Below are positions 21,003-39,732 of a stretch of 49,104 bases of DNA, one piece after another. Each line of letters starts with the position of its first letter. The first letter of the stretch is position 1. The position numbers and the translations under genes were made by a program. Location: NCBI RefSeq assembly GCF_000934845.1, contig NZ_JXIQ01000097.1, positions 1 through 49,104 on the forward strand, in the 5' to 3' direction. Under the pieces are notes generated by a model. That model saw only the letters and a list, made by a program, of their open reading frames with translations. It ran no database searches and had not been told where the DNA came from. This stretch comes from Mesobacillus subterraneus (GTDB lineage Bacteria; Bacillota; Bacilli; Bacillales; Cytobacillaceae).

Positions 21003-21548
21003 CACCAATACAGCTCATTGGTGACCTCTTTTCCCAACTTCTGGTTTTTTCGTGCACCAATACGGCTCATTGGTGACCTTATTTCCCTAATTTCTGGTTT
21101 TTTCGTGCACCAATACGGCTCATTGGTAACCTTATTTACCTAATTTCTGGTTTTTTCGGGCACCAATTCAGCTCATTGGTGACCTTATTTCCCTAATTTC
21201 TGGTTTTTTCGTGCACCAATACGGCTTATTGGTGACCTCATTTCCCTAATTTCTGGTTTTTTCGTGCACCAATACGGCTTATTGGTGACCCCTTTTTCCT
21301 AATTTCTGGTTTTTTTGAGCACCAATACAGCTCATTGGTGATCTCTTTTTCCTAATTTATGGATTTTTCGAGCACCAATACGGCTCATTGGTGACCTATT
21401 TTCCCGATTTCTGGTTTTTTCGGTCACCAATACAGCTTATTGGTGACCTTATTTCCCTAATTTATGGTTTTTTCGGGCACCAATACGGCTTATTGGTGAC
21501 CTTATTTCCCTATTTCTGGTTTTTTCGGACGCCAATACGGCTTATTGG
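21003..21548. repeat. Tandem hairpin array 1: about 11 copies of a 52-53 bp unit
   Basis: Units start at 21003, 21055, 21108, 21161, 21214, 21267, 21320, 21373, 21425, 21478 and 21530 (last one cut short). Each begins with an inverted repeat, CACCAAT, a 7-base ACGGCTC-like loop, and ATTGGTG. In copies with CGGCTT the stem gains one A-T pair. A spacer follows: ACCTTATTTCCCTAATTTC, then a TGGTTTTTTCG segment. All parts repeat, so there are no unique spacers and it is not CRISPR. Changes concentrate in the loop and spacer; the arms are nearly invariant except ATTGGTA in copy 3 and the end copy. It lies between the 5' end of the AlaX gene and the 3' side of treC. Confidence 0.95.
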
Positions 21549-21659
21549 GTTCAAAAAAGATTTTCCATTAAGAAAATGCTGGGAATTTATCAGACTGCCA
21601 GCAAATTGGATGAGACTACTTAACTTTACAGCCGTCAAAAGGCAGTTGAGGTAACCTCT

Positions 21660-21839
21660 TTGTCCAAACTTGTATCCTTCTTGTTAACTGTCGAAACAAA
21701 AACGACTTTAAAAATTATGGAAGGTATCAATGTAGAACCTAAATGGACACAGTTTACAAAATTGGTATCAAATGAAGCTACTGTTTTACAGGTGAAGCAC
21801 AAGCATCTGATCGAGACCACCGAATCTTTTCAAATATAG
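21660..21839 (+). CDS. Possible 59-residue protein or gene fragment
   Basis: A plus-strand frame starting with TTG, with GAGGT 7 bases upstream. The peptide begins SKLVSFLLTVETKTTLKI and continues with EGINVEPKWTQFTKLVSNEA, a composition typical of real coding sequence rather than antisense noise. I recognise no family. It could be an intact small protein or the end of a decayed gene; an in-frame stop directly upstream rules out a longer version. It lies between array 1 and a truncated membrane gene. Confidence 0.4.
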   Translation: MSKLVSFLLTVETKTTLKIMEGINVEPKWTQFTKLVSNEATVLQVKHKHLIETTESFQI

Positions 21840-21876
21840 TCATAGTATTTAACCATTAAAATAGAGGTGATGTTTT

Positions 21877-21975
21877 GTGGTAAGAACTATTCTAATGATC
21901 ATTGGGGCAATTGTCGTGAGCCGTTTCTTGTTCAGTTTGTTAGCACATCCTGTGCCTCGGAGGGCCTGCCAGTGA
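21877..21975 (+). pseudogene. Truncated small membrane protein, 3' end replaced by a dispersed repeat
   Basis: GAGGTGA sits 6 bases before a GTG start. The peptide begins VVRTILMIIGAIVVSRFLFSLL, a convincing single membrane helix. From the codon after LLA the DNA becomes the dispersed repeat (the match with copy C starts at CACATCCTGTGCCTCGG), and the frame ends in PVPRRACQ. The simplest reading is that an element inserted into, or recombined with, a small membrane-protein gene and cut it off. Confidence 0.5.
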
Positions 21976-22066
21976 ATTCGTTCTTTGACTTTATTGGCAG
22001 GACCGAAGCGTGCCGCAGCTTGACAAGCGACTTGAGGGGCTTTCGTAGGATCTAGACAATTCTCGA
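21944..22066. repeat. Dispersed intergenic repeat, copy B
   Basis: It shares its left part with copy C (CCTGTGCCTCGGA and the segment after it up to CGTTCTTT) and its right part with copy A (TTCTTTGACTT to CTAGACAATTCTCG). It contains an internal inverted repeat, CCTGCCA and TGGCAGG. It therefore links all three copies into one family. Confidence 0.65.
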
Positions 22067-22095
22067 AGTGAATTTTATACTTTCTTAATCTTTCG

Positions 22096-22130
22096 AAAAA
22101 AAGGAGACCTAAATGAAATGGAAGGCCTCC
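22096..22130 (-). terminator. Terminator of the trehalose operon
   Basis: GGAGGCC and GGTCTCC arms (one G-T pair) followed on the minus strand by TTTTTTT, 10 bp past the treC stop. Confidence 0.8.
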
Positions 22131-22139
22131 TCTAATCTG

Positions 22140-23825
22140 TTATTTTGTTAAATGAAATACTATGGACTCATATGGACGAAGAGTAACCCGAGACAGATCA
22201 TTGTTCGTATCAGCATAATTTGAGAGCAGAACTTGTACATGAAAGCCATCTATTCTCACAGTATCTGGCAATTCAAAGACCGTATCTTTTCCATAAAAAT
22301 TGTTTACGACAAGCAACTTTTCATTCTTACCGTTTCTGACATAAGCAAATATCTCAGGGTTTTCTTCAAGGATCAGCTGGTAATCCCCAGATGTGATGAT
22401 GTCATATTGCTTCCGAAGCTGGATCAGCTTTTTATAATGATAGAAAACGGAATTTATATCTGCAAGCGCCTTTTCCGCGTTGACAGTCTGATAATTTTTA
22501 GCGGTGCCAATCCATGGGGTCCCTTTTGTAAAACCGGCATTCTTTTCGGCATTCCACTGAACAGGAGTTCGTGAATTGTCACGCGACTTGCTCTGAAGAA
22601 TTTTCAGGATTTCCTCCTCAGGCATGCCTTCTTCCAATTTCATTTGATACATATTCAAGGATTCTACATCGCGATAATCCTCGATTTTTTCAAAATAAGG
22701 ATTGGTCATCCCTATTTCTTCCCCCTGGTAAATATATGGTGTTCCTTGCATCATATGAATTGCCGTTCCAAGCATTTTTGCTGATTCCCGGTGATATTTC
22801 CCGTCATTACCATAACGAGAGACAATACGAGGCTGGTCATGATTGCACCAGAACAAAGCATTCCATCCTCCGCCTTTATGCATTTCTTCCTGCCATAAAG
22901 ATAAAATCCGTTTAAGTGCGAGGAAGTCGAAATCAGCGAGTGTCCATTTATCGCCATTTTGATAATCAACTTTTAAATGATGAAAATTAAATGTCATGCT
23001 CAATTCTTTACGCTCTGGATTCGAGTATTTGATACAGTTGTCTATTGTGGTCGATGACATCTCACCGACCGTCATGCTGTTATATTTCGAGAATACTTCT
23101 TGGTTCATTTCCTGCAAAAACTCATGAATTCGCGGGCCATCTGTATAAAATTTCCGACCATCTCCAGGAGGAACAGAACCGTCATCATCCGGAAAAGTTG
23201 GATCCTTTGAGATCAGATTGATCACATCTAGTCGGAAGCCATCTACCCCTTTTTTAAACCAAAAGTGCATCATCTCATATACATCATTGCGCAGCTTTTC
23301 ATTTTCCCAGTTCAAATCGGCCTGAGTCACATCGAATAAATGCAGATAGTATTGTCCCGTCGCCTCATCATACTCCCAGGCATTGCCGCCAAATTTGGAC
23401 TCCCAATTAGTCGGGGCGCTTCCATCGTCTTTTGGATCCTTCCAAATATAATAGTCGCGATAGCGGCTGTCCTTTGATTTCTTTGCCTCTTGGAACCACT
23501 CATGCTCAGTTGATGAGTGGTTGACAACGATATCCATGATTAGTTTCATTCCGCGTTTATGGGTCTCTTGAAGAAGACGGTCGAAGTCTTCCATCGTCCC
23601 ATATTGCTCATAAATCTTAAAATAATCTTTAATATCATACCCATTGTCTCGCTGAGGTGAATCATAGATTGGCGTAAGCCAGATGATATCCACCCCAAGT
23701 TGGCTCAAGTATTCCAGTTTGGCGATAATTCCCGGAAGATCGCCTGTTCCATTGCCAGTCGTATCGTAAAAACTTTTTGGATAGATCTGATACACAACCG
23801 ACTTCTTCCACCATGGTTCAGTCAT
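22140..23825 (-). CDS. treC: Trehalose-6-phosphate hydrolase (phospho-alpha-1,1-glucosidase)
   Basis: A 561-residue GH13 glycosidase, very close along its length to the B. subtilis enzyme (called treA/treC there). It starts WWKKSVVYQIYPKSFYDT and has the GH13 core motifs MDIVVNHSS, GFRLDVINLIS (nucleophile Asp), TVGEMSSTT (acid/base Glu) and NHDQPR. It cleaves imported trehalose-6-phosphate to glucose and glucose-6-phosphate. GGAGG lies 9 bases before the ATG. It follows the trehalose PTS permease gene by 33 bp in the same operon. Related oligo-1,6-glucosidases look similar, but the PTS partner and TreR operators settle the assignment. Confidence 0.92.
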   Translation of the reverse strand: MTEPWWKKSVVYQIYPKSFYDTTGNGTGDLPGIIAKLEYLSQLGVDIIWLTPIYDSPQRDNGYDIKDYFKIYEQYGTMEDFDRLLQETHKRGMKLIMDIVVNHSSTEHEWFQEAKKSKDSRYRDYYIWKDPKDDGSAPTNWESKFGGNAWEYDEATGQYYLHLFDVTQADLNWENEKLRNDVYEMMHFWFKKGVDGFRLDVINLISKDPTFPDDDGSVPPGDGRKFYTDGPRIHEFLQEMNQEVFSKYNSMTVGEMSSTTIDNCIKYSNPERKELSMTFNFHHLKVDYQNGDKWTLADFDFLALKRILSLWQEEMHKGGGWNALFWCNHDQPRIVSRYGNDGKYHRESAKMLGTAIHMMQGTPYIYQGEEIGMTNPYFEKIEDYRDVESLNMYQMKLEEGMPEEEILKILQSKSRDNSRTPVQWNAEKNAGFTKGTPWIGTAKNYQTVNAEKALADINSVFYHYKKLIQLRKQYDIITSGDYQLILEENPEIFAYVRNGKNEKLLVVNNFYGKDTVFELPDTVRIDGFHVQVLLSNYADTNNDLSRVTLRPYESIVFHLTK

Positions 23826-23858
23826 GAAATACTTCCTCCTCCATCTGGATCATTCAGT

Positions 23859-25277
23859 TCATTCTACTTCTTTCTTTTTCCTAGTCTTGGACATAATGAA
23901 GGTCAGTACAAACGGTACAACAAGCGCAATGGCCATTCCAATGAAGAACACTCCCCAATACTCCGTATAGATGGATAGGAATGCAGGCAGGCCACCGACT
24001 CCAATCGAAGGCGCCATGACACCACTCAGTGTAATGACTACTCCGGCAATGGCTGAACCAATAATAGCGGCAATGAAAGGGTATCTGTAGCGCAAATTCA
24101 CACCAAACATCGCAGGCTCGGTAATTCCAAGCCAGGCTGAAATAGCCGAAGTCATCGAAAGACCTTTTAATTTCTCATTATCTTTGTCAGCAAACATCAT
24201 CGCAAACGCCGCTGATCCTTGAGCGATATTGGAAAGTGCCACCATCGGCCAGAGGAAGGTGCCGCCAATCGATCCGATCAGCTGTAAGTCCACCGCAAGG
24301 AAAGTATGGTGCATACCGGTGATAACAAGCGGCGCATAAAGTGCACCGTAAATTAATCCACCAATGATAGGGGCAGCATCAAACAAACCAACAACCCCGT
24401 CCGTAATCAGATTGCCAATTGCAAAAGTAATTGGTCCGATCACGATAAATGATAAAAATCCAGTTACAAGCAAGGCAATTGGTGCAACTGTAAGTAGCTG
24501 GAAAGCATCAGGTATTCGCTTGCGCAAAAAGATTTCCATTTTCGCCAATACATAAGAAGCAAGCAGGACTGGCAATACTTGTCCTTGGTAACCGACTTTC
24601 TCAACGGTCAATCCAAACAAATTCCAGGTTGGGATTTCGCCTTTCTGTTGTGCTGCTCCATATCCCCAAGCATTCAGTAAATCAGGATGTACTAGCATGA
24701 GTCCAAGTACAATACCAAGCAGCGGGTTTCCGCCGAACTTATTGACCGCACTCCAGCCAATCAGACCAGGCAGAAATACGAACGCAGTATTGGCAATTAA
24801 ATTGATGATACTTGCAAAATCAGCCCAGCCTGTATAAACTTCGATTAGCGCTTTTCCTTCAAAGAAAATATCTTTCCCGGTTAGAATGTTATTGATTCCC
24901 ATTAATAAACCAGCAGTCACAATTGCCGGCAAGATGGGAATGAAGATATCTGCCAGTGTCTTGATCGCCCTTTGCAGCGGATTCAGGTTCTGGGCAGCTG
25001 CATCTTTGATGTCTTGTTTTGATGCTTCCCCAATCCCGGTAATCGCTACCATTTCTGCATATACCTTATCGACGAGTCCCTGGCCAATGACTACTTGGAA
25101 TTGACCGTTCGCCGAAAATGATCCTTTTACGAGATCATTGTTCTCTAATTTCTCCTTGTCTACTTTTCCTTCATCCTTTAAAGCAAAACGAAGCCTTGTC
25201 ACACAATGAGTAGCTGCGGCGATATTCTCTTTGCCGCCCACTGCCTCAACTATTTGTTCAACAGCTTTGCGATCCAT
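23859..25277 (-). CDS. treP: Trehalose-specific PTS permease EIIBC
   Basis: A 472-residue fused permease. The N-terminal EIIB domain has its phosphorylation cysteine in ATHCVTRLRF (C24). A linker follows, then the EIIC domain with about ten membrane spans, including GITEPAMFGVNLRYRYPF, the conserved GITEP motif, and ITGMHHTFLAVDLQL. It imports and phosphorylates trehalose; it lacks an EIIA domain and must borrow one, as in B. subtilis. AGGAGGAG lies 7 bases upstream of the ATG. Its promoter carries TreR operators. The regulator gene treR, usually third in this operon, is not present after treC. Confidence 0.92.
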   Translation of the reverse strand: MDRKAVEQIVEAVGGKENIAAATHCVTRLRFALKDEGKVDKEKLENNDLVKGSFSANGQFQVVIGQGLVDKVYAEMVAITGIGEASKQDIKDAAAQNLNPLQRAIKTLADIFIPILPAIVTAGLLMGINNILTGKDIFFEGKALIEVYTGWADFASIINLIANTAFVFLPGLIGWSAVNKFGGNPLLGIVLGLMLVHPDLLNAWGYGAAQQKGEIPTWNLFGLTVEKVGYQGQVLPVLLASYVLAKMEIFLRKRIPDAFQLLTVAPIALLVTGFLSFIVIGPITFAIGNLITDGVVGLFDAAPIIGGLIYGALYAPLVITGMHHTFLAVDLQLIGSIGGTFLWPMVALSNIAQGSAAFAMMFADKDNEKLKGLSMTSAISAWLGITEPAMFGVNLRYRYPFIAAIIGSAIAGVVITLSGVMAPSIGVGGLPAFLSIYTEYWGVFFIGMAIALVVPFVLTFIMSKTRKKKEVE

Positions 25278-25338
25278 AGTCGATCTCCTCCTGTTACCGT
25301 TTTCATTTAATATAAAAAAATCGCTTTACATCTGAACA

Positions 25339-25394
25339 CTTGTATATACATCATGTTGCGATTTTATTTTACTTGTATATACAAGATAAGTCAA
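25339..25394 (-). promoter_or_regulatory. tre promoter with two TreR operators
   Basis: Reading the minus strand, a -35 TTGACT (25389-25394) and a -10 TAAAAT (25366-25371) are 17 bp apart. The spacer is filled by the perfect 14-bp palindrome CTTGTATATACAAG (25372-25385), the known B. subtilis TreR operator sequence. A second, imperfect copy lies at 25339-25352. TreR bound in the spacer would block RNA polymerase until trehalose-6-phosphate releases it. Confidence 0.85.
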
Positions 25395-25523
25395 CTGCTT
25401 TACTCATTCTTTTTATATTCCCCAAAACAACTGATTAAAAACGACATTCTCAGCAGATGTCTATTCGAACAAAACCGAATGAACAAGGAGGACAGAAACA
25501 GGTTAGCAAACTGGCTAGGAACG

Positions 25524-25584
25524 AAAAACTAAAGAAACTGCCAACAGAAATTCATTTTGCTTCTGCGGGCAATCTCTTTAGTTT
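25524..25584 (-). terminator. Terminator of the sugar ABC operon
   Basis: AAACTAAAGA and TCTTTAGTTT form a long stem with an inner GCC/GGC pairing, followed by TTT on the minus strand, just past the last permease gene. Confidence 0.6.
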
Positions 25585-25590
25585 CTGTGT

Positions 25591-26460
25591 TTATCCTTTT
25601 GTTCCAGATGAGAGATTCGAGCCTTCGATAAAGTACTTTTGGAAAAAGAAAAACAAGAAAATGACTGGAAGCAATACTGTAACAGACATTGCCATTAAAT
25701 AATGCCACTGTGTTTGGACCGTACCTTTAAAGGTTTGCAAGCCTATCTGCAAAGTGTACATGCTTTCATCATTAATATACAGCAATGGTCCTAATAGATC
25801 ATTCCATGCCCCATTGAAAGAGAAAATCGCCACCGTGATTAAAGCCGGTTTTGTCAATGGAAGCATGATATGCCACCAGATTTGCAAATGTCCCGCTCCA
25901 TCTAGTACAGCTGCCTCCATCAGTTCATTCGGTATCCCTAACATAAACTGGCGAAGCAAAAAAATGAAAAAGGCACTGCCGAGGAATGCAGGCACTAGCA
26001 AAGGCAAGTATGTGTTTACCCATCCAAGTTTGGAAAACAGGATATATTGCGGCACCATTGTAACAAATCCGGGAATCAGCATGGTGGAGAGAACGAGAAT
26101 AAAAAGTGGATTTCTGCCTTTAAAGTGGATTTTAGCAAAACCGTAAGCAACCAACGAGTTCACTAGCACACTACCGATCGTTCCAACAGAAGCTAGAAAG
26201 AGAGTATTCAATGCCCAGCGAGTGAAAGGCGCAGTCTGCCAGGCCTCAATGTAATTGTTGAAATGGAACTCCTTTGGGAAAAATGTCGGTGGATATTGGG
26301 CAATCTCAGCAGGGGACTTAAGTGAAGTCGAAATCATCCACCATAATGGCAGCAAAATCAGCATACTGCCAGCAATTAACACAAATGTAACAAATGTGTA
26401 TTTAACCTTATCCTTAAACTTTTTCGTCTCGTAAAATTTTGGGGCAGACACGGAACTCAC
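25591..26460 (-). CDS. Carbohydrate ABC transporter permease, MalG type
   Basis: A 289-residue inner-membrane permease with six predicted helices. The ATPase-contact motif EAAVLDGAGHLQIWWHIMLP (about residues 190-209) is the standard EAA loop of sugar permeases. The C-terminus ends in the typical FFFFQKYFIEGSNLSSGTKG region. It partners with the frameshifted MalF-type permease directly upstream, overlapping it by 4 bp, and with the lipoprotein binding protein first in the operon. No ATPase gene is in the operon; Bacillus often uses a shared one (MsmX). The sugar is unknown. Confidence 0.88.
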   Translation of the reverse strand: MSSVSAPKFYETKKFKDKVKYTFVTFVLIAGSMLILLPLWWMISTSLKSPAEIAQYPPTFFPKEFHFNNYIEAWQTAPFTRWALNTLFLASVGTIGSVLVNSLVAYGFAKIHFKGRNPLFILVLSTMLIPGFVTMVPQYILFSKLGWVNTYLPLLVPAFLGSAFFIFLLRQFMLGIPNELMEAAVLDGAGHLQIWWHIMLPLTKPALITVAIFSFNGAWNDLLGPLLYINDESMYTLQIGLQTFKGTVQTQWHYLMAMSVTVLLPVIFLFFFFQKYFIEGSNLSSGTKG

Positions 26461-27448
26461 TTATCATTTCCTCCTTCATAATGCACCCATCTCTTACCGA
26501 GCTTCATATTCACTGAGGTCAAAATCATCACGATGAGAAATAACAGCCATGCCATTGCCGAAGCATATCCCATGTTAAAGACTTCAAAGGCGTTATTCCA
26601 CATATGCAAATTATAGAACAATAGCGAATTCCCGGGTCCTCCGCTGCCATTTTCCGTCATGACATATGCTTCTTGAAAAATTTGAAATGCTCCAATCGTA
26701 CTGGTGATAACATCAAAAAAGATAATGGGAGAAATCATTGGCAAGGTAATATAATAAAACTTTTGCCACGGCGAGGCCCCCTCCATGTCAGCTGCTTCAT
26801 ACATTTGCGGCGATACCCCCTGCATAATAGCCAGATACAAAAGCATTCCTCCGCCAACACTCCACATTTTCATCAATAGCAATGCAGGCTTGGTCCAATC
26901 AGGATCAAACAGCCACGCTGGCCCTGTAATTCCGATCCAACCTAGCATCGTGTTCACGAGACCAGTTGATGGACTCAATAGCTGCATCCAGAGAAGATAG
27001 ACTGCCACACCTGATAACACCGCCGGCAGATAATAGATGGTTCGGAAAAACTTCATGCCTTTGATTTTCTGGTTCAGGAGAACAGCCAGAATGATCGCAC
27101 CGGCAGTCGTCAATGGAACTGAAAATACAACATAATAAACGGTATTAAACAGGGAAGTACGAAATAAATCGTCCATCGTAAACATACTTTTATAGTTTTC
27201 TAACCCGACGAAATTCATTTTTGAGGTAATATTGTAATCAGTAAAACTTGCAGCCAGACTGAACAGTAACCCATTGTCAATCCAAGGAACCCAATGATCC
27301 ATGGGGAAATGAATAAGTACCCTGCTAGATTATCTTTTGCTTTTTTACTTAGACCTTTTTTCACAGTTGCTTCTGGATCTTTACTTTCCGTGGGCACTTT
27401 TGGCCCAACTTCTGTGTGCACTAATGTACTTTCAGATATTTTCATCAT
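26457..27448 (-). pseudogene. Carbohydrate ABC permease, MalF type, with an apparent frameshift
   Basis: Two overlapping frames together make one permease. The first, from the ATG at 27448 (GGAGG 7 bases upstream), encodes the N-terminus up to NLAGYLFISPWIIGFLGLTMG. The second continues as LLFSLAASFTDYNITSKMNFVG, the normal next segment of sugar permeases, and runs to 26457 with the EAA loop EAADMEGASPWQKFYYITLP. The switch falls near 27264-27280, where a few bases seem missing before LLFSL. Taken as read, the protein would end early. A sequencing error is possible, because the rest shows no decay. Without it the gene would encode about 330 residues. Confidence 0.75.
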
Positions 27449-27491
27449 TCCTAAACCTCCACTTGCAATTTCATTAACACTAGTTCTTATC

Positions 27492-27527
27492 AAAAAGAGA
27501 AGGGCAGTTGCGCCTTCTCTCTTTTTT
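27492..27527 (-). terminator. Internal terminator after the sugar-binding protein gene
   Basis: AGAGAAGG / CCTTCTCT stem with a 9-base loop followed by TTTTTG on the minus strand. It sits between the binding-protein gene and the permease genes, an arrangement that lets the binding protein be made in excess. Confidence 0.8.
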
Positions 27528-27530
27528 GCA

Positions 27531-28823
27531 TTATTTCTTCATTTTTTTAATATCTTCTTCCGCTTGCTTGAGTGCTTTTTCAGGTGCAGTTTTTCCTAAT
27601 AAAGCATTGTCAATATGCGGATTCAATCTGCTCATATAATCTGGGTAATCTATCGGTACCGGGAACATTTTTGTTTGCTTCAAATTTTTGACTGTCGCTT
27701 CATAAACCATTTTATCCGGCCCTTTTAGTTCATTTAGAGCTGACTCCGCAGCTTCACTATTCGCCACATTATCATAATTTTTGACGGCCCAGTATTTCTG
27801 AGCTTTCACATCTGTCAAATAGCGGATAAAGTCCATCGCTTCTTTTGGATGCTTAGAGCCTTTGGGCACTTCTACAACGAAACCGCCTCCTTCAGCCCAA
27901 TTTCCTGCACCTTTTTCTTTGGCTGGTATGGGCGCAACGCCAAACTCAACATCCTGACCATAATCCCGTAATTGAGTATAGAATGTACCTACATCGATCC
28001 ACATGGAAACCTTCCCTGCAATGAACGGATTGGACTGTTCGCTGCCAAATTCAGCCTGGAAAGCTTGGACTGTCCTTTCACCGAGCCCTTCCTTCCAATC
28101 AAGAATCCAATTTAGCGCCTCCACTTTTTTTGGGGTGTTAATGGCGAGTTCTCCATCTGCAATAAAACCTTTTCCACCATCTGCATTTATCATCCAACTG
28201 GAAGCACCAACACTTCCCCAAAGAGGATAGAACCCAATCCGATCATATTTATCGCCATTTTTCACATCCAATTTTCGAGCATATTCCTCCAGTTCAGACC
28301 AAGTTGCTGGTGGTTTATTTGGATCAAGTCCCACTTCTTTGAAAGCTTTTTTGTTATAAAATAGGAGACGTGTATCTGTATTGAATGGAACTGCGTATGT
28401 TTTTCCATCCTGTTCGACTGTATCCCACAAATAAGGATAAAACTGCTGTTTGAATGAATCATCCACATACTCACTAATATCCTCTACCTGTTTGTTTTCA
28501 GCACGCTGAGCTACGGTATTAATATCATTGACAATTACATCAGCTGGATTGCCGGCTGCAACGGACGCAAGATTCTTGGTCCAAATATCGCCCCAAGGCA
28601 AAAAAGTGTGCTTTACAAAGACTTTGTCCTGTGACTGATTGTAATCATTCACTATTTTTTCAATAATTGGCCTGCGTGTTTCTGATCCCCAGAATGTCCA
28701 GAAATCAATTACTACCTTCCCATCTTTCGTTTTTTCAGCTTCTGCACTTTGCTCACCTGAGCACCCAGCCAGCAAGCTGATAATCATTGTTACTGCTAGA
28801 AAGAAAGCTAGACCCCTCTTCAT
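27531..28823 (-). CDS. Sugar-binding lipoprotein of an ABC transporter
   Basis: A 430-residue extracellular solute-binding protein, family 1. The signal peptide MKRGLAFFLAVTMIISLLAGC ends in a lipobox, LLAGC, so it is anchored by lipid outside the membrane. After it come VVIDFWTFWGSE, the common start of mature sugar-binding proteins, and AGKVSMWIDVGTF near the middle. GGAGG lies 7 bases before the ATG; a GTG just before it is the alternative start. First gene of the sugar ABC operon. The ligand cannot be predicted from sequence by eye. Confidence 0.88.
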   Translation of the reverse strand: MKRGLAFFLAVTMIISLLAGCSGEQSAEAEKTKDGKVVIDFWTFWGSETRRPIIEKIVNDYNQSQDKVFVKHTFLPWGDIWTKNLASVAAGNPADVIVNDINTVAQRAENKQVEDISEYVDDSFKQQFYPYLWDTVEQDGKTYAVPFNTDTRLLFYNKKAFKEVGLDPNKPPATWSELEEYARKLDVKNGDKYDRIGFYPLWGSVGASSWMINADGGKGFIADGELAINTPKKVEALNWILDWKEGLGERTVQAFQAEFGSEQSNPFIAGKVSMWIDVGTFYTQLRDYGQDVEFGVAPIPAKEKGAGNWAEGGGFVVEVPKGSKHPKEAMDFIRYLTDVKAQKYWAVKNYDNVANSEAAESALNELKGPDKMVYEATVKNLKQTKMFPVPIDYPDYMSRLNPHIDNALLGKTAPEKALKQAEEDIKKMKK

Positions 28824-28918
28824 CACTGATCCTCCTGTAAAGTAAAGTTAATTCATAAATACAACCTCACTATTACCACTCTCACTGACTTTCTAAACTT
28901 TTTATGATGGAATGAAAA

Positions 28919-28947
28919 AGGTGCTTGCACCAATGGCACAAGCACCT
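28919..28947 (-). terminator. Terminator after the first YjcZ gene
   Basis: GGTGCTTG / CAAGCACC stem with an 11-base loop followed by TTTTTC on the minus strand. Confidence 0.75.
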
Positions 28948-28968
28948 ATTATCTTCTTATTCCAATCC

Positions 28969-29091
28969 TTAGAGATAACATGAGCAGCCGACGATAATCA
29001 ACAGGATAAACAGCACAACGATCAAGACAAATCCGTTGCCGTTTCCAACTCCTCCTACACTACAGCCGCCATATCCACCGTATCCGTACAT
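28969..29091 (-). CDS. YjcZ-family small membrane peptide (40 residues)
   Basis: The peptide has a glycine/tyrosine-rich start (MYGYGGYGGCSVGG) and a C-terminal membrane helix, FVLIVVLFILLIIVGC, the hallmark of the YjcZ family of Bacillus sporulation-associated peptides. GGAGG lies 7 bases before the ATG. It is the second of two similar genes in tandem. Exact role unknown; homologues are abundant in spore formers. Confidence 0.88.
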   Translation of the reverse strand: MYGYGGYGGCSVGGVGNGNGFVLIVVLFILLIIVGCSCYL

Positions 29092-29118
29092 TCTAAAACC
29101 TCCTACCCGAAGTTCAAC

Positions 29119-29367: not shown

Positions 29368-29376
29368 AGAATTAAT

Positions 29377-31565: not shown

Positions 31566-31581
31566 CAGTTTTTTAGGTTCA

Positions 31582-32310: not shown

Positions 32311-32429
32311 GATGCTTCCCCTCCATATTCCAATAATTAAACATACATTCTAACTGTATGAAGGATTACGGCACAAAAGACATTGGACATCGGGTAAATT
32401 GGAATTGTGAAATCATTAGAAACGATAAT

Positions 32430-32455
32430 GTTTTAAATAGACTTAAAAGGGGTAC
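32430..32455 (+). promoter_or_regulatory. SigB-like promoter
   Basis: GTTTTA and GGGTAC, 14 bases apart, match the SigB consensus GTTTaa / GGGtAt closely. The start of the 73-residue gene lies about 95 bp downstream. Function inferred only from the sequence match. Confidence 0.5.
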
Positions 32456-32550
32456 TTTCGTTGTTAAAAGGTTTGATAATCACAAAAAACTCGAAAGCAT
32501 GGTTCCATTAGAACAGAAAGGGAGCCAGATGAAAAAGAGAGGTGAAAAGG

Positions 32551-32772
32551 ATGGTTAAAAAGTCAACTCCTGTAGATAACACGCAAAACATGGACAATCC
32601 AGAACAGTATAGTACCCGAAAAAAAAGTCTCCATGATACATTCAAAAGTGAGTTAACTGTTGATCCCATTCCAATCGAAGACCTTAATCAGGAAAAGCAA
32701 GAAGAAAAGGACGGTCATCATACAAAGGATTCATCTTCAAGCGAAAAGAAATATATGGATAGTGATCAATAA
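32551..32772 (+). CDS. Small very hydrophilic protein, possibly stress-related
   Basis: A 73-residue protein made almost wholly of charged and polar residues (starts MVKKSTPVDNTQNMDNPEQ, ends EKKYMDSDQ). No cysteine and no hydrophobic core, so it is likely disordered. GAGGTG lies 6-7 bases before the ATG. A SigB-like promoter upstream suggests a general stress protein, much as small hydrophilic Bacillus proteins often are. I recognise no family. A hairpin follows the stop. Confidence 0.6.
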   Translation: MVKKSTPVDNTQNMDNPEQYSTRKKSLHDTFKSELTVDPIPIEDLNQEKQEEKDGHHTKDSSSSEKKYMDSDQ

Positions 32773-32775
32773 AAA

Positions 32776-32799
32776 TTAGCCCTGGGAATCCAGGGCTAA
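32776..32799. terminator. Strong hairpin after the hydrophilic protein gene
   Basis: Perfect 10-bp stem TTAGCCCTGG / CCAGGGCTAA with a 4-base loop. The T run is better on the minus strand (TTTTTATT) than on the plus strand, so it is a weak plus-strand terminator. Confidence 0.6.
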
Positions 32800-32913
32800 G
32801 CTGTTTAATGACAGAAAAAACAATTATTGTTCAAACTTTTGTTAAAATTAACAGTAGATGTAGAAGATGACTTGATTCCATAAGAAGATTATAGTAATCT
32901 ATTGGTATAAAGA

Positions 32914-32931
32914 ATGTGAATTATTTCACAA
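32914..32931 (+). promoter_or_regulatory. Rex operator 1 upstream of ndh
   Basis: ATGTGAATTATTTCACAA fits the Rex consensus TTGTGAA-N4-TTCACAA with one mismatch. Rex senses the NADH/NAD ratio and controls ndh in B. subtilis. It could also be read as an Fnr-type TGTGA-N6-TCACA site. Confidence 0.65.
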
Positions 32932-32978
32932 AAATGATTATAAAAACCAATTCTAGGTTTTATTTTTTTTCATCGGTA

Positions 32979-32996
32979 TTGTGAAATATATCACAA
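32979..32996 (+). promoter_or_regulatory. Rex operator 2 upstream of ndh
   Basis: TTGTGAAATATATCACAA, a second Rex/Fnr-type palindrome, ends 26 bp before the ndh start. Two sites 65 bp apart (about six helical turns) would allow cooperative binding. Confidence 0.65.
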
Positions 32997-33022
32997 TGAT
33001 AAATCGGAAAGAAGGAGATCCA

Positions 33023-34255
33023 ATGAAAACTCCCAAAATAGTGATACTCGGTGCAGGGTATGGCGGCTTGATTACAAGCCGGCAACTGGAGAAATCACTG
33101 AGTGACGGCGAAGCAGAAGTAACGTTGATCAATAAACATGATTACCATTATATTTCAACCCAGCTTCATAAAACTGGCGCCGGAACGGCATCAGACGATA
33201 AAATCGCGCTGCACATTCCAAATTTGCTCAAGACAAATAAGATTCACTTTAAAAAAGGAACCGTTCAGAATGTTGACTTCGGTAAAAAGAAAGTCTATCT
33301 TGATTCTGGCGATAAAATAGAGTATGACTACTTGCTGATCTCTCTAGGTTTTGATGTCGCTACCTTTGATATTCCAGGAGTAGAAGAAAATGCCTTTAAA
33401 ATCAAAAGCTTTCAAAGCACAAAAGCTATTTATAACCATATTCTCAGACAGTTCGCTGCTTACAAAATTGATTCTGATCCATCTAGACTTACCTTTGCGG
33501 TAGCCGGAGCAGGTTTTACCGGTATTGAAATGGTGGGCGAACTCATTGAAGCATTGCCAAATCTTTGCCGCGCCTATGATATTCCTTTTTCCAAAACAAG
33601 AATCATTACTATTGAAGCTTGTCCCACCATTCTGCCAGGATTTGATCAAGAAGCAATTGATTTTACAACCACTTATTTTAAAAAGAACAATGTTGAATTA
33701 ATGACCTCTACTAAAATACGAAAATGTTCTCCAACTTCAATTGACTTGGACAATGGAGAAGTACTTCCGTCCAAAACATTGATTTGGGCTGCTGGTGTTC
33801 GCGGTAATTTCCTCCTAGAAAAACTAAATTTGCCTATTTCAAGAGGCCGTATTCCGGTTGATGAATTTTTACGGGTAAAAGGTGTAGAAAATGTCTTTTG
33901 CATCGGGGATGCTGCATTATGCATGAAGGATGAGAAAAATGCCCTTCCTCCGACTGCACAAGTGGCCTTACAACAGGCAGTTTTATGTGGTCCTAATATG
34001 ATTGCCAGCCTGAGGGGGGAACCGCTTAAACCTTTCATGTATCATCATAAAGGCACGGTCGCTTCCATTGGAAATAAGGTGGCCGTAGGAAAAGTGTTCG
34101 GGTTGAAAATCTCCGGTTCATTTGCTGCTTTAATGAAGCAGGTGATCGAGGCGCGCTACCTCTTAATGCTTGGTGGTCCTAGCCTCATCATTAAGCAGCT
34201 ACTTAAAATCAAAAAGCCTTATACAGATGTTTCCACTGTCTCCAATCAAAAATAA
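33023..34255 (+). CDS. ndh: Type II NADH dehydrogenase
   Basis: A 410-residue FAD enzyme that passes electrons from NADH to menaquinone without pumping protons. The first nucleotide motif is VILGAGYGGLITSRQL and the second VAGAGFTGIEMVGEL. Near the end come VFCIGDAALC and the quinone-side segment PTAQVALQQ, which fits the family's AxQ motif. A C-terminal amphipathic part (about 370-400) should bind the membrane. The frame opens earlier at a GTG inside Rex operator 2; GGAG lies 5 bases before the ATG at 33023, which is therefore the start. Rex sites upstream give feedback on the NADH level. B. subtilis has three such genes; which one this matches is not certain. Confidence 0.88.
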   Translation: MKTPKIVILGAGYGGLITSRQLEKSLSDGEAEVTLINKHDYHYISTQLHKTGAGTASDDKIALHIPNLLKTNKIHFKKGTVQNVDFGKKKVYLDSGDKIEYDYLLISLGFDVATFDIPGVEENAFKIKSFQSTKAIYNHILRQFAAYKIDSDPSRLTFAVAGAGFTGIEMVGELIEALPNLCRAYDIPFSKTRIITIEACPTILPGFDQEAIDFTTTYFKKNNVELMTSTKIRKCSPTSIDLDNGEVLPSKTLIWAAGVRGNFLLEKLNLPISRGRIPVDEFLRVKGVENVFCIGDAALCMKDEKNALPPTAQVALQQAVLCGPNMIASLRGEPLKPFMYHHKGTVASIGNKVAVGKVFGLKISGSFAALMKQVIEARYLLMLGGPSLIIKQLLKIKKPYTDVSTVSNQK

Positions 34256-34262
34256 CATACCA

Positions 34263-34301
34263 AAGCATCGGTGCAGTTCCTAGGAATCCTGCCCGATGCT
34301 T
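34263..34301. terminator. Bidirectional terminator between ndh and the M15 peptidase gene
   Basis: AAGCATCGG / CCGATGCTT arms, with an inner GCAG / CTGC pairing, between convergent genes. Confidence 0.75.
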
Positions 34302-34304
34302 CAG

Positions 34305-34871
34305 TTAATTTTGTGATGCAGTCAGCGAGTTTTGCGGAGGCCGTTTCCCACGTTGCAAATCATCAATCGTTAGTCCGAAACGCATTTCAAAATGAGGATA
34401 ATCTTTAAAGTGCTCCCAATCTCCTCCCCATTGAAATCCAAGTTCCTTGGCTATAGCAACTACCTCCATCCAATCCGATTTTCCGTTCCCATTTCCGTCA
34501 TAGGCTGTATCCCACAATGCTTTCCCTTGTTTATCCAATAAGGCAAAATCTATTGCTAGGCCAAAATTATGATAAGAATCCCCAGCTTTTGCGTGGGTGA
34601 CAATTTGACCATCTGTCGTCCTGCCCTTTTGATACAAAAAATCTTGTTCCTGGAAACTCCTGAATCCATCCGTCACAATGATGCTGATCCCTGAATCAGC
34701 AGCCGTCTTGACCAACGTTTCCTTTTTCTCCAAGACAAGCGGATGGAGGTCCTTTGGCAGAGTAGCATCTTCCTGTACTTCCGATCTATTAAGAAACTGG
34801 GAATATAACAGAAGCACCATCAAAATCAACAAGAAAGTGACGGATGCATTCCCAAACAGCTTTTTATTCAC
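34305..34871 (-). CDS. M15-family peptidoglycan peptidase, CwlK/YcdD type
   Basis: A 188-residue protein with an N-terminal membrane anchor (about residues 10-26) and an extracellular M15 domain. The zinc and catalytic residues are visible: R71 in DGFRSFQEQ, H101 and D108 in SYHNFGLAIDFA, and H160 in YPHFEMRFG. This is the VanY/CwlK pattern. B. subtilis CwlK cuts between L-Ala and D-Glu in the wall peptide; vancomycin-resistance VanY-type proteins share the fold, and the sequence alone does not decide the bond. Convergent with ndh. Confidence 0.85.
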   Translation of the reverse strand: MNKKLFGNASVTFLLILMVLLLYSQFLNRSEVQEDATLPKDLHPLVLEKKETLVKTAADSGISIIVTDGFRSFQEQDFLYQKGRTTDGQIVTHAKAGDSYHNFGLAIDFALLDKQGKALWDTAYDGNGNGKSDWMEVVAIAKELGFQWGGDWEHFKDYPHFEMRFGLTIDDLQRGKRPPQNSLTASQN

Positions 34872-34972
34872 GATAAAAATCCTTTCCGTAAATCTTTCAG
34901 TCTATTATAATACGAATTGGAGCCATTAAGGGTTTCATAGAAAAATAAAGGAATGCTTCCGAAAATTCCCTC

Positions 34973-35001
34973 TTGCTAACACATCTTGCTCATGATATAT
35001 T
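34973..35001 (+). promoter_or_regulatory. SigA-type promoter of a candidate small RNA
   Basis: TTGCTA and TATATT with exactly 17 bases between them. Transcription would start near 35008 and run into the structured region below. No reading frame with a ribosome site follows. Confidence 0.45.
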
Positions 35002-35007
35002 AATCAA

Positions 35008-35122
35008 GCGATGAGCTGAATTGTGTAAGCCGGTTGACACTCCTTCGCGGAAATGCACGATGTGGCGTGCAGTCAATCGCCTCAATACGCAGAAAGACGC
35101 CTTCTAGGCGTCTTTCTTTTTT
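35008..35122 (+). ncRNA. Candidate structured small RNA, about 115 nt
   Basis: Between two minus-strand genes there is a plus-strand unit with promoter, structure and terminator. The outer stem pairs GGTTGAC (35032-35038) with GTCAATC (35072-35078). Inside are a small TCC / GGA hairpin with a TTCGC loop and a perfect hairpin, GCACG / CGTGC (35055-35070), giving a three-way junction. A long terminator stem, AGAAAGACGCC / GGCGTCTTTCT (35091-35117), with TTTTTT follows. The T run is on the plus strand, not on the side of the neighbouring CNNM gene. No known riboswitch class recognised; no gene follows it in that direction. Confidence 0.5.
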
Positions 35123-35148
35123 ATGTCTTGCTTTCTGTTTAATCAATT

Positions 35149-36453
35149 TTACTCCTCTTTTATCTTGGTAACCTCTAAATAGGCAATATGGTATTCATCG
35201 ATCTCAATGATTTTGAAAAGAAACCCTTCTTCCTCAATCTCGTCACCAATTTCCGCATCCATATTCTTGGTCATGAACCACCCGCCAATAGTGTCCACAT
35301 CTTCTTCGGAAATATGGATGCCTAGCAGATCATTCACTTCATCAATCAATACTCTTGAGCTGAAAAGATAATGGCCTTCTTTTATCTTTCTAATTTCGGC
35401 TATTTCATCTACATCAAATTCGTCACGGATGTCCCCAACGATTTCCTCCAAAATATCCTCCACAGTTACGAGGCCAGAGGTGCCCCCATACTCATCGATC
35501 AAGATTGCCATATGGATGCGTTCTTTCTGCATCTTCACGAGCAAATCATGTATGGGAATGTTCTCAATCACCTTAATGACTGGCTTAATAAATGATGACA
35601 AAATCGATTCTTTTTGGAGCTCCCTTTGTGTCAATTTCGCAGTCAGTATTTCTTTGATATTAATCATTCCAACAACATTATCCTTTTCCCCATCGACTAC
35701 AGGGTATCGGGTGTATTTCTCCTCTTGAATCACATCAATAATTTTTTCCACATCGTCCGAAATGTCAAACGTAACAATTTCCGTTCTAGGAACCATAATT
35801 TCTTTAGCGATCCGCTCATCAAATTCAAAAATATTATTAACAAAGTTCAATTCATTCTGGTTAATTTCTCCACTTTCAAAGCTCTCCGATAATAGAATCC
35901 GCAGCTCCTCCTCTGAATGAGCTATATCATGTTCGGAGGCCGGCTTTATGCCAAATAAACCGACCAAAAGCCGGGCTGATCCATTCAGCGCCCAAATAAA
36001 GGGATACATTATTTTATAAAACAAAATAATTGGCTTTGAAAATGCCATGCTGATTGCTTCTGCTTTTTGGATAGCAACCGTCTTAGGGGCAAGTTCTCCC
36101 ACTACAACATGCAAAAAAGTAATCGAAGCAAACGCGATAGCAAACGATAAGAGACCAGATAATGACTCATTTAGATGCAAGCTTTCAAAAACGGGATGGA
36201 GCACCGCTTCCACTGTCGGTTCCCCTAACCAGCCTAAGCCAAGAGCCGTTATGGTAATCCCAAGCTGACAGGCAGACAAATATTCATCGAGATGCGTGAT
36301 GACATGTTTAGCTGATTGCGCCCCTTTCCTTCCTTCTGCAATCAGTTGATCAATCCGTGAACTCCTAACTTTCACAATTGCAAATTCAGTTGCAACGAAA
36401 AAACCAGTCAATGCAATTAACAAAATCACTAACAATAAATTCGTAATAATCAA
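35149..36453 (-). CDS. CNNM/CorC-type membrane protein with CBS domains (hemolysin family)
   Basis: A 434-residue protein. The N-terminal DUF21 membrane domain (residues about 1-190, four spans, with [14 protein letters not shown]) is followed by two CBS domains ([12 protein letters not shown] ... YTRYPVV and [14 protein letters not shown] ... [14 protein letters not shown]) and a C-terminal CorC_HlyC domain (about 355-430). Bacillus relatives such as MpfA export magnesium; others have unknown ion roles. The start appears to be TTG. The only good Shine-Dalgarno, AGGAGGTG, lies 30 bases upstream, with a hairpin in between (see 36461). Monocistronic. Confidence 0.85.
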
Positions 36454-36460
36454 TGGGCAA

Positions 36461-36490
36461 GCCTTACATATTGTAAGGCATTCACCTCCT
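36461..36490 (-). promoter_or_regulatory. Shine-Dalgarno separated from the start by a hairpin
   Basis: On the minus strand AGGAGGTG is followed by the perfect 8-bp hairpin GCCTTACAATATGTAAGGC and then, 7 bases later, the TTG start. Only with the hairpin folded is the spacing close to normal (about 12). An ATG 3 bases after the Shine-Dalgarno would instead give a 5-codon leader peptide (MPYNM). Confidence 0.5.
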
Positions 36491-36710
36491 ACAGAGCAGT
36501 TCCTTCAAAATTTCATTGAAATCATTCTTTACATTATACCCTTTTGTTTAACAGCTAACACCTTTTATTCACTTAGTCCAAGTATTCGAAACTTTTAAAA
36601 GTAAGAATGCATAATCTTAATTTAGAATTTTCCGCTTAACTATTTTTAAATTTTACCGAAAATAACAATAACGATATTTTCGCTAGGCAGAATCAAAAGG
36701 AGTGGACAAA

Positions 36711-38492
36711 TTGCGTTTTATGAAAAGAAAGATCGCTGTTAAAAAGAAAAAAGCAGTCGGACCCCTACTCAAAGGGCATATGAGTTTAAAGCTGAAGATC
36801 GTCTCCTTGAGTATCATTTCCATCCTTATCCTTGCAATTGCAACAACTTTATATGCCCAGTATACGATAAAGTCCAGTAATTTCGAGTCAATGGAAGCTG
36901 AACTCATGACCATTTCAAGCTTATTGGCGGATCAGGTATCCGTTGGAAAAGCTAATACCATCATCGGCAATCCATCTAAGAACAATCCCGGTGTCACTTC
37001 AATGCAAAAACAAATGGATCTAATTCTTAAGGAAAACCCCTTAATACATAATCTCTATTTGATCACTCAGGATGGAAATAAATTCATCGTTCCAACGATG
37101 AGTTCAGCAATGATGAAGGATGACCTCACCTATGGTTCACAATATTCCAGCGGAAAAGCGTTTGATCAAGCTGCAATGGAGGCTTTTAAGGAAAACAAAA
37201 GAACGACTACGGATATATTTAAGTCAGATACTGGGGCAAAAATGACCGGGTTTGCTCCCATTACCGACATGAGCGGAAAGGCAATTGCCTTATATGGGGT
37301 CGAGTTTGACGTTTCCCAAATCAATAAGAAAATCAATCGTGAAGTTGCAGGGATTTGGGTCATGTCGATCATTATCCTGCTCCTTTCAAGCACAGCTATG
37401 TATATCTTGGTTTCAAGGCTGATTAAACCATTAAATAAGATTAAAAATTTGACGTCGAATATTGCAAATGGTGATTTATCGCAAGATGACATCAAGGTAC
37501 GTTCAAAAGATGAGATCGGTGCCTTAGCAGAAAGCATCAATGTAATGACTTCATCGCTTCGCACCTTGGTTTCACAGGTGCAAGCAAGCACGAAGGAAGT
37601 TTCCAATGAAACAACAGGGTTATCAAGTGTTGCTTCCAGCTCTGTTGAAGCCATCAGGGAATTAACGGCAGCGAACCAACAGGCGGCAGCAAGTACACAG
37701 GAACAGAATGCCAATATTGAGGAAATGCAAGCAACATTGGAAGAAATCAATGCAGGAATTGAAGAAATTAACGCTTCCGCACAGCAGGCTAGCTTCATTG
37801 CCAAAAATTCAACTGCCACTTCCAAAGAAGGCACGAAAAGGATTGATGAAATGCTGGAGGGACTGGAATTAGTTGACGAAAACACAAATCATCTGGCTAA
37901 TATTATTACAGAGCTGGAAAAGCAATCAGACAAAATTACCCAATTCGTTAAGATCATTAACACCATTTCGGACCAAACAAACCTGTTGGCATTGAACGCA
38001 GCCATAGAAGCGGCAAGGGCTGGTGAACACGGAAAAGGGTTTGCAGTGGTCGCAAGTGAAGTCAGAAAGCTTGCTGAAGAGAGTGCGAAGTCAGCTGCAA
38101 CCATTATTACCATTGTAAATGAAAATGTCCAAAATACACGCAATGCAGTAGATTACATCTTTAAGACAAGAGAAGCAGTACAATACAATAAAAACCTGTC
38201 CACTCACGCCAAAGAAACACTGAAGGATATATATGAAACCACTTTAGAGATTGAGGATAACTCAAACAATATTGCTTCGGCGATTGAACAGCAGGTGATT
38301 GCGATCGAACAAATCACAAACTCACTCGACACCGTCTCACAGGCTTCCCAGCAGATTGCAGCAGGAACTAGCCGGACAGATCAATCGACTCAGGAACAAT
38401 TGCGAATCGCTGAAAATGTGAATGAAACAACGAAAACCCTGCAACAAACAGCTTTAGAGTTAGAAAAACTGACCGCCCAGTTTAAATTATAG
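36711..38492 (+). CDS. Methyl-accepting chemotaxis protein
   Basis: A 593-residue chemoreceptor. Membrane helix 1 spans about 30-50, and an extracellular dCache-like sensor with [15 protein letters not shown] and a [15 protein letters not shown] end precedes helix 2 (about 215-237). A HAMP domain follows ([20 protein letters not shown]), then the long signalling coiled coil. Its tip, [20 protein letters not shown] and [20 protein letters not shown], is the conserved CheA/CheW contact. The start is TTG at 36711, with AAGGAG 8 bases upstream; GTG at 36702 and ATG at 36720 are alternatives. Ligand unknown. Single gene with its own terminator. Confidence 0.9.
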
Positions 38493-38533
38493 AAAAGATA
38501 AAAAGGATGCCTGTGGCATCCTTTTTATCTTTT
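38493..38533. terminator. Bidirectional terminator after the chemoreceptor
   Basis: Long perfect stem AAAAGATAAAAAGGATGCC / GGCATCCTTTTTATCTTTT with a 3-base loop, shared by the convergent 156-residue gene, whose stop lies inside it. Confidence 0.92.
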
Positions 38534-38995
38534 CCTGAATCCTTCTTCTTCTAAATACTGTTTTGCTTCATTATAAGATAGAAATGTGCCATCCAAATTT
38601 AGGCCGGCATATACATTCCAGCTGTCTTCTTCATGAACTAAGATTAGCGTGTGATTCTCTGTATTGACCCAGCGCTCGTCTTTATAGTCTTCGATAATAG
38701 CTGATTCAATCGTATTGCTAGCTGTAAGTGACTCAATGGAGAGTTCAATGATCGTTTTTAGCTCGTCCCCAGTAAAATCGCGAATATTCACCATCCCCTT
38801 CCCATCAGACTCATATCCATCTAAAAATTCTCCATAGACATACCCATTTCCGTTTGGATGTAAGTGATAGACAACAATTTTCTTATCATAGCTGCTATCT
38901 GGATAATGAAAGTTCACACGGTTCATAGAAACATTTTTTCGTTCAAGCTCTTGGAAAGATTCAATAATGGAAAGTTTTTGATCAAAAGTCAGCAT
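38525..38995 (-). CDS. Conserved hypothetical soluble protein, 156 residues
   Basis: A soluble protein starting MLTFDQKLSIIESFQELERKN and with a well-structured middle, VVYHLHPNGNGYVYGEFLDGYE, then MVNIRDFTGDELKTIIE. Composition is normal and GGAGG lies 5 bases before the ATG; a longer frame from 39055 has no ribosome site. I recall similar Bacillus proteins but no function. Array 2 lies directly upstream of its start, so its promoter must be between 38996 and 39110 or inside the array. Confidence 0.7.
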   Translation of the reverse strand: MLTFDQKLSIIESFQELERKNVSMNRVNFHYPDSSYDKKIVVYHLHPNGNGYVYGEFLDGYESDGKGMVNIRDFTGDELKTIIELSIESLTASNTIESAIIEDYKDERWVNTENHTLILVHEEDSWNVYAGLNLDGTFLSYNEAKQYLEEEGFRKR

Positions 38996-39110
38996 AATTG
39001 CCTCCAGATTCAGAAAGATTTTATGATTCTGTTCATTATAACATTTGGCAAACACATAACAAAAAATTACTTTATTATTGTCAAAGCCTTATTCAGACAG
39101 AACCAAAGCA

Positions 39111-39711
39111 GTCCGGACCCATTGGACTTCTTCCCGAAACCTGTCCGAACTTTGGACTACTTCGGACTACTTTTGCCTGTTTTCCCCTAAACCTATCCGA
39201 ACTTTGGCTAACTTCGGACTACTTTGACCTATTTTCCCTGAAACCTGTCCGAACCTTGGCTAACTTCGGACTACTTTTGCCTGTTTTTCCTAAAACCTGT
39301 CCGAACTTTGGCCTACTTCGCTACTTTTTCCGGTTTTGCCTGAAACCTGTCCGAACTTTGGCCTACTTCGGACTACTTTTGCCGGTTTTGCCCGAAACCT
39401 GTCCGAACTTTGGACTACTTCGGACTACTTTTGCTGGTTCTGTCCGAAACCTGTCCGAACTTTGGACTACTTTTGCCTGTTTTCCCCTAAACCTATCCGA
39501 ACCTTGGCTAACTTCGGACTATTTTGACCTATTTTCCCTGAAACCTGTCCGAACCTTGGCTAACTTCGGACTACTTTTGCCGGTTTTTCCTGAAACCTGT
39601 CCGAACTTTGGCTAACTTCGGACTACTTTTGCCGGTTTTGTCCGAAACCTGTCCGAACTCCGACCTACTTTGGACTACTTTGACCTATTTTCCCTGAAAC
39701 CTGTCCGAACT
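39111..39711. repeat. Tandem hairpin array 2: about 12 copies of a 52-bp unit
   Basis: Units start (at GTCCGAA) near 39143, 39195, 39247, 39299, 39349, 39401, 39453, 39495, 39547, 39599, 39651 and 39703, with a degenerate copy at 39111. The spacing is 52 bp except for 50 and 42 where small deletions occurred. Each unit has the inverted repeat GTCCGAA, an 11-base CTTTGGACTAC- or CTTTGGCTAAC-type loop, TTCGGAC, then TACTTTTGCCTGTTTTCCCC or GACCTATTTTCCCTGAAACC. Two copies have ATCCGAA on the left arm. Copies 2-3 and 8-9 are almost identical over more than 100 bp, which suggests block duplication. Not CRISPR: no unique spacers. Confidence 0.95.
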
Positions 39712-39732
39712 TATTCCATTAATCTATGAGAG

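Follow-up and report, generated by a model that had tools for sequence, protein, structure and literature searches.

Two tandem hairpin arrays of Mesobacillus subterraneus belong to a dispersed set of 52-bp repeats mostly oriented with replication

Results and Discussion

The two arrays and their surroundings

In a stretch of 49,104 nucleotides from Mesobacillus subterraneus (positions 1 to 49,104 of contig NZ_JXIQ01000097.1, assembly GCF_000934845.1; called the window in the following) two tandem arrays of hairpin-bearing units are located between genes, array 1 between an alpha-amylase-family and an AlaX-like gene and array 2 between a NERD-domain gene and an open reading frame (ORF) of 176 amino acids, which was given as a 156-residue gene in the initial annotation of this DNA (Table 1). 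Here we show that both arrays belong to a dispersed set of tandem hairpin arrays with a 52-bp unit, inherited vertically for the most part, and that within the genus their purine-rich strand lies mostly on the leading strand of replication, regardless of the neighbouring genes. Tandem Repeats Finder gave a period of 53 bp with 10.4 copies (89% match) for array 1 and a period of 52 bp with 11.4 copies (83% match) for array 2, and the period of about 52–53 bp, the inverted repeat in each unit and the gene context with all genes on the minus strand are as they had been described in the initial annotation. Cut into single units, both arrays consist of stretches of 52–54 bp, for the most part 52 bp long; the exceptions are two units of array 2, which measure 42 and 50 bp. 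On the minus strand the unit reads CGAAAAAACCAGAAATTAGGGAAATAAGGTCACCAATGAGCCGTATTGGTGCA in array 1 and GTTCGGACAGGTTT..AAAGTAGTCCGAAGTTAGCCAAA in array 2, where minus is the G strand bearing GACAGGTTT. As the GC skew is negative in 22 of the 24 2-kb stretches of the window and most large ORFs lie on minus, this strand was taken as the leading strand, and both arrays carry their purine-rich strand on it.

Table 1: Arrays, neighbouring genes and other features of the window.
Feature	Position	Strand	Remarks
Array 1, family A	21001..21548	-	about 10.4 units of 52–54 bp, each with stem CACCAAT/ATTGGTG and 7-nt loop; purine-rich strand on minus
Array 2, family B	39133..39712	-	about 11.4 units, mostly 52 bp, each with stem GTCCGAA/TTCGGAC and 11-nt loop
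Alpha-amylase-family gene (treC in the initial annotation)	22140..23825	-	beside array 1
AlaX-like (alanyl-tRNA-synthetase-like editing) gene	19714..20895	-	beside array 1
NERD-domain gene	39733..40641	-	beside array 2; same neighbour site holds arrays in other species
176-aa ORF	38525..39055	-	other side of array 2; without Pfam match
Flank of array 1	21543..21900	-	repeated wholly or partly at C31, C52, C32, C172, C7, C145
Other flank of array 1, including array end	20935..21035	-	repeated at C192, C143, C162, C31, C7; by eye at C52
VanY/peptidase M15-like carboxypeptidase gene	34305-34871	-	
BsrF small RNA (RF01411)	35008-35115	+	93.6 bits

The first-named flank of array 1 has a degenerate look in the window when inspected by eye. 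Its copy at C31 carries a 107-aa ORF without Pfam match, and an HPr-like identity considered for the ORF flanking array 1 was dropped, as Pfam gave no match. At C7 both flanks of array 1 are joined with no array between them, and at C143 only the second flank is present, together with one hairpin.

The initial annotation had regarded both arrays as one type with locus-specific hairpins, held together by a TTTCCCT-like spacer core and presumably by a shared machinery, and had named a similarity no better than that of pyrimidine-rich DNA in general as a result that would speak against this core. Chance level in comparison to dinucleotide shuffles is what we found. The two core 20-mers agree at 14 of 20 positions, this being a match between two variants, as the array-2 version is exact in three units of array 2 and the array-1 version in two units of array 1. 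Between the consensus units the best 20-mer match is 13/20, which was reached by 112 of 300 shuffles, and the 14/20 match of the core-bearing variant unit was reached by 38 of 300. The exact motif AGGGAAANNAGGTC is indeed restricted to arrays in the own genome (11/11 exact matches), but eight of the matches come from array 1 or from its close relatives, located at C32 and C192, and the other three are the three array-2 units just mentioned. The idea of one array type with locus-specific hairpins stands, the shared core as its reason does not, and a common machinery making or reading the arrays can only be inferred. What does link the arrays is the 52-bp period, the architecture of the stem, the tendency of the purine-rich strand in both families to be the leading one, and the occurrence of types B and D next to each other at one site.

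Array families in the genome and in relatives

A DNA search of the own genome (3.9 Mb in 208 contigs) revealed additional members of both hairpin families, in nearly all cases with a period of 52 bp, and the genome-wide search for 50–55-bp arrays that the initial annotation had proposed thus yielded many more of them. Further hairpin types with periods of 51–53 bp were present in a 400-kb sample of this genome not selected for arrays, examples being TTGACAACTTT..AAAGTTGTCAA (L174) and ACCCTTAT..AAGGGT (L183, L188). A 53-bp hairpin family with CCCTTAT and AAGGGT arms is located at L183 13477-13650, L188 134-406 and L311 3162-3316. Several contigs of the draft genome end inside such arrays, including C32 and C192. 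There is also a second array class with units of 21 or 40–42 bp (CGCCAATAAA, TATCAACGGTT, TTTGTCCTCATTCT), found in the own genome (L173, L183, L192) and in relatives (L235, L239, L242); 21, 42 and 52 bp correspond to about 2, 4 and 5 helical turns.

Family A, to which array 1 belongs, was detected in 17 of 20 same-genus genomes and in none of 40 others (E <= 1e-6). The family B hairpin of array 2, searched as GTCCGAA-N9-13-TTCGGAC, occurs in 45 of 121 genomes including the own one, with counts of up to 184 per genome compared to 0–2 for the reversed control pattern. Besides the own genome these are 18 of 20 same-genus and 26 of 100 other genomes, six of the latter having a single match, which is the control level; at least three matches were found in 18/20 same-genus and 20/100 more distant genomes. 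Among the holders are Cytobacillus oceanisediminis 2691, Mesobacillus selenatarsenatis, Peribacillus kribbensis, Texcoconibacillus texcoconensis and several Bacillus sp. Genome G008 showed neither a B nor a family-A match, and G016 showed no B-type match. G014, which is without the B hairpin, carries a 52-bp array AACCGGGCACATA..TATGTGCCCCGTT at L204 127-331 with a single mismatch likewise at position 4. The same kind of array is borne by a record titled Chryseobacterium sp. ISL-80 (L096, L214), which looks like a mislabelled Bacillaceae genome. An origin from mobile replicons was rejected, as one G011 array compared with 72,556 plasmids and 50,697 phages matched none of them. Both arrays of the window therewith belong to large families of 52-base hairpin repeats lying between genes in some Bacillus relatives, which are apparently undescribed.

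Architecture of the units

The period is 52 in all 29 B/D arrays of G011, and the family-A arrays of relatives share it. As seen from the unit consensi, type D has the half-site AAASCTGTC in common with type B, with the inner part being CGAA-N11-TTCG in type B and A/T-rich in type D, and both types directly adjoin each other within single sites (L096, L110, L125, L134). Counting pairs by their distance from the dyad gave one architecture for A, B and D, namely a 3-bp foot, a single mismatch, a stem and a loop. The foot is paired in 61–100% of the consensi (A, n = 22; B, n = 66; D, n = 24) and the commonest mismatch is T.C in A (14/22) and G.G in B (40/66) and D (24/24). Consensi entered this count if they were exactly 52 bp long and had 2.5 copies or more, and the units were selected by inner stem positions, the mismatch and the foot playing no part in the selection. 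Because of the G.G mismatch the units of types B and D have an orientation. Their purine-rich strand carries AAAGCTGTC-N19-GACAGGTTT. In 57 of 85 B/D arrays the spacer from GACAGGTT to AA..TGTC could be read; it is site-specific, in most cases 17 nt long and mostly rich in purines on the G strand. When two B/D units were folded as single-stranded DNA the polar strand was the more stable one in both (-12.2 vs -8.1 and -7.7 vs -4.4 kcal/mol).

Inheritance of array sites

Array sites common to different species are defined by shared neighbour genes, and the NERD site of array 2 is one of them. Units from orthologous sites have a median similarity of 0.68 (n = 44 pairs, including probable false sites joined via a gene family, the L265 pairs with 0–0.21, which were retained), in comparison to medians of 0.25 (n = 3045) for the remaining pairs between genomes and 0.35 (n = 481) for pairs from one and the same genome. 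From these higher scores it appears that arrays are passed on vertically, that the units of an array are homogenised and that different loci stay distinct. One site is occupied by type D in Coce and in G011, where the array ends in B units, and by type B in M. selenatarsenatis.

Orientation along the chromosome

The polarity can be followed best in G011, the record of which begins with a dnaA-like ORF. The pattern AAAGCTGTCN{17,21}GACAGGTTT has 92 forward and 80 reverse matches there, and of the 100 matches listed for it 83 are forward up to 2.34 Mb and 17 are reverse from 2.66 Mb on. For type D all 55 forward matches lie before 2.34 Mb and the reverse matches listed, 45 of 55, all lie after 2.66 Mb, leaving no exception among the 100 matches listed out of 110. 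Type B (52 matches) is forward in 28 cases before 2.34 Mb and reverse in 15 cases after 3.27 Mb, and the nine discordant forward matches at 3.319 Mb are one array. Ten reverse matches fit neither of the narrower patterns, and their position beyond 2.93 Mb was deduced from list order. Counted by array, 28 of the 29 fetched B/D arrays agree in which of their strands is the leading one (p about 1e-7 vs 0.5). The discordant array (L289 9128-10036) is also the one of the 29 that is richest in opposite-strand motifs, 26 against 6.

In the G015 record, which does not start at dnaA, the listed arrays change strand between 1.56 and 2.00 Mb and the GC skew changes between 1.8 and 1.9 Mb. Among the matches listed all B-type loci are concordant in G009 (3), G018 (2; record start masked and origin assumed) and G019 (5), and so are 6/6 loci in G024 from another genus, oriented by loop sequence rather than by mismatch. 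The family-A loci, of which at most 10 candidates per genome were scored, are concordant at 40 of the 47 loci among the matches listed in six complete genomes (p about 1e-6 vs 0.5), the terminus being set to the midpoint for G009, G018, G019 and G016 and the origin of G016 and G018 being assumed. Local GC skew, which is a noisier measure of polarity than the whole-chromosome test, agrees with the leading strand in 48 of 57 arrays after removal of duplicate loci and of arrays with a weak orientation signal, and in 72 of 85 B/D arrays in the larger set. Within the genus and in G024 the strand preference thus reverses at the origin and the terminus. That most arrays placeable on complete chromosomes of the genus are oriented along the copying direction suggests a link with DNA replication.

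With the leading strand as plus, the 29 G011 arrays lie in ++ (12), -+ (7), +- (7) and -- (3) gene contexts, the counts for neighbouring ORF pairs in the remainder of these stretches being 64, 16, 20 and 18. As the gene calls come from a simple longest-ORF script, an individual context may be wrong; neighbours confirmed by Pfam are GNAT and Glu/Gln-tRNA-synthetase (L255), a spore permease and a nucleotidyltransferase (L262) and a permease (L110). In ten G011 arrays the upstream neighbour is on the other strand and nine of these are still concordant, and the L255 array lies between the GNAT and the Glu/Gln-tRNA-synthetase-family gene, both pointing the opposite way. Such arrays facing away from their neighbour genes are the stronger argument against an orientation driven by transcription.

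Possible function and alternative explanations

Our tentative explanation, for which we see nearly even chances, is that the arrays are a DNA-level element tied to replication, the mismatched hairpin or dyad of which is probably what a putative protein recognises. The element would act in step with replication, with the polar strand being the parental strand exposed as lagging-strand template. On single-stranded DNA, or as an asymmetric dyad in the duplex, each unit would offer a stem interrupted by a single mismatch above its three basal pairs, and a putative host protein might read many units in register, 52 bp or about five helical turns apart, so that the array could act as a polar mark on the chromosome or as a site for loading. 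Unit turnover would keep the copies within an array alike and make loop and spacer locus-specific, and the recognised architecture and polarity would persist as loop and spacer diverge. If this is true, the arrays would be a new class of chromosomal landmark that is tied to the replication direction, does not depend on how genes are oriented and has been retained in place in different species. An extension of this model that we consider rather unlikely would be an origin-to-terminus addressing of Bacillaceae chromosomes by chromosome-wide polar hairpin arrays that are read at the fork by a dedicated protein, with foot and mismatch as the code and loop and spacer as the identity of the locus.

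Several observations weigh against the replication-tied element. If arrays merely followed genes, a concordance of about 78% would be expected from the leading-strand share of ORFs (84/107), and compared to this share the 28/29 in G011 gives only p = 0.012 and the 40/47 of family A p = 0.37. Discordant are one of the 29 G011 arrays, 7 of the 47 listed family-A loci and, by local GC skew, 13 of the 85 B/D arrays, four of them from Texcoconibacillus and three from the own genome. G065 from a third genus is mixed and showed no clean polarity and no flipping strand bias with the pattern used, G049 has a single match on minus at 1.9 of about 5.6 Mb without placement of the origin, and G052 gives no readable polarity. 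The number of exact B hairpins per same-genus genome ranges from 0 to 184, and for the array-1 unit the two strands are alike in folding stability (-5.4 vs -5.1). Moreover, in trinucleotide repeats, taken as an analogy, the orientation prone to deletion is the one in which the strand with the stable hairpin serves as lagging-strand template.

The strongest rival is a neutral model of orientation-dependent survival, which we judge unlikely though worth serious consideration: functionless satellites whose units expand or survive only with the stable hairpin strand on one fork template and are lost by slippage in the other orientation. It would account for a polarity that follows replication and not the neighbour genes, for the variable array load among genomes, for homogenised arrays with site-specific sequence and for the two B/D units in which the strands differ in hairpin stability, and the arrays would then record in nature on which strand hairpins are tolerated at the fork. 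What it leaves unexplained is the same design of foot, mismatch and stem in three hairpin families, the period of exactly 52 and the persistence of arrays at orthologous sites in several species, which are unexpected without selection or an active mechanism. Next come highly transcribed noncoding RNA arrays that fold as RNA and are co-oriented with replication like rRNA genes, an explanation of clearly lower probability. The strong co-orientation fits, and on the polar strand G.U is slightly more frequent than A.C (169 vs 103 in 363 distinct units, and G.T 13 vs A.C 4 at one D position), but this excess is weak and rests on related sequences. Upstream of the 29 G011 arrays there is no excess of sigma-A-like promoters (mean best score 7.90 vs 7.97 on the opposite strand and 7.76 downstream). 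No array in the window matched Rfam at gathering score and five further loci gave sub-threshold hits only, so that none of its known structured RNA families fits the arrays. Inspection by eye revealed a terminator-like hairpin between gene and array in 9 of 13 viewed arrays, which also speaks against such transcripts, but these nine represent only three orthologous sites and no obvious one precedes array 2. A role in 3'-untranslated regions or mRNA stability was likewise rejected, given these hairpins and the fact that no gene context is depleted.

The arrays could also resemble repetitive extragenic palindromes (REPs) spread on lagging-strand single-stranded DNA by a Y1 transposase (IS200/IS605 or REP-associated tyrosine transposase, RAYT), a family with an orientation preference that would produce the bias. 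Hairpins, extragenic sites and the polarity towards the lagging template are in line with this, and Y1 transposases occur in 103 of 121 genomes including the own one. Yet the corresponding PF01797 was not found in G006 and G015 despite 107 and 141 B hairpins there, showing that Y1/RAYT is not required, exact B/D units in G011 are all in tandem arrays and never solitary among the matches listed, and no tag is conserved across species. Y1 transposition is therefore unlikely as the present source of the arrays, and we regard this explanation as the least probable one.

Comparison with known systems

Among known elements the REPs and the bacterial interspersed mosaic elements (BIMEs) come close to the arrays. 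REPs are extragenic palindromes tagged with GTAG or CGTC, and they resemble the arrays in being present in many copies, some of them clustered, with an imperfect stem (PMC3733652). The arrays differ from REP and BIME in being long, tandem and polar to replication, with a fixed 52-bp unit and site-specific spacers, a Y1 transposase not being required and a conserved tag being absent. No GTAG/CGTC tag was found at the foot of the B units, which often read AAAGTAGTCCGAA in the own genome and mostly AAAGCTGTC in other species, nor in the family-A consensi.

Like the arrays, the FtsK-orienting polar sequences (KOPS) and the SpoIIIE recognition sequences (SRS) are oriented from origin to terminus; they are short dispersed motifs, whereas G011 has 29 B/D arrays and at least nine family-A loci instead. 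The SRS motif GAGAAGGG has no occurrence in the 19,376 bases of the 29 G011 arrays, which speaks against the arrays being SRS. Chi is a polar chromosome motif as well, short and dispersed. Bacterial variable-number tandem repeat (VNTR) or minisatellite loci are tandem intergenic repeats with variable copy number; the arrays share these features but differ in having a period, a hairpin design and a polarity that different loci and species have in common. Clustered regularly interspaced short palindromic repeats (CRISPR) likewise have a regular period and a palindromic repeat, but the spacers of the arrays are alike within each array and not unique.

A literature search covering titles and abstract openings, with subscription papers mostly outside its reach, returned nothing that describes these arrays, and we know of no family that is both a tandem extragenic palindrome and a polar chromosome motif. 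Tandem extragenic palindromes and polar motifs are each known on their own, and their combination in one family appears to be new.

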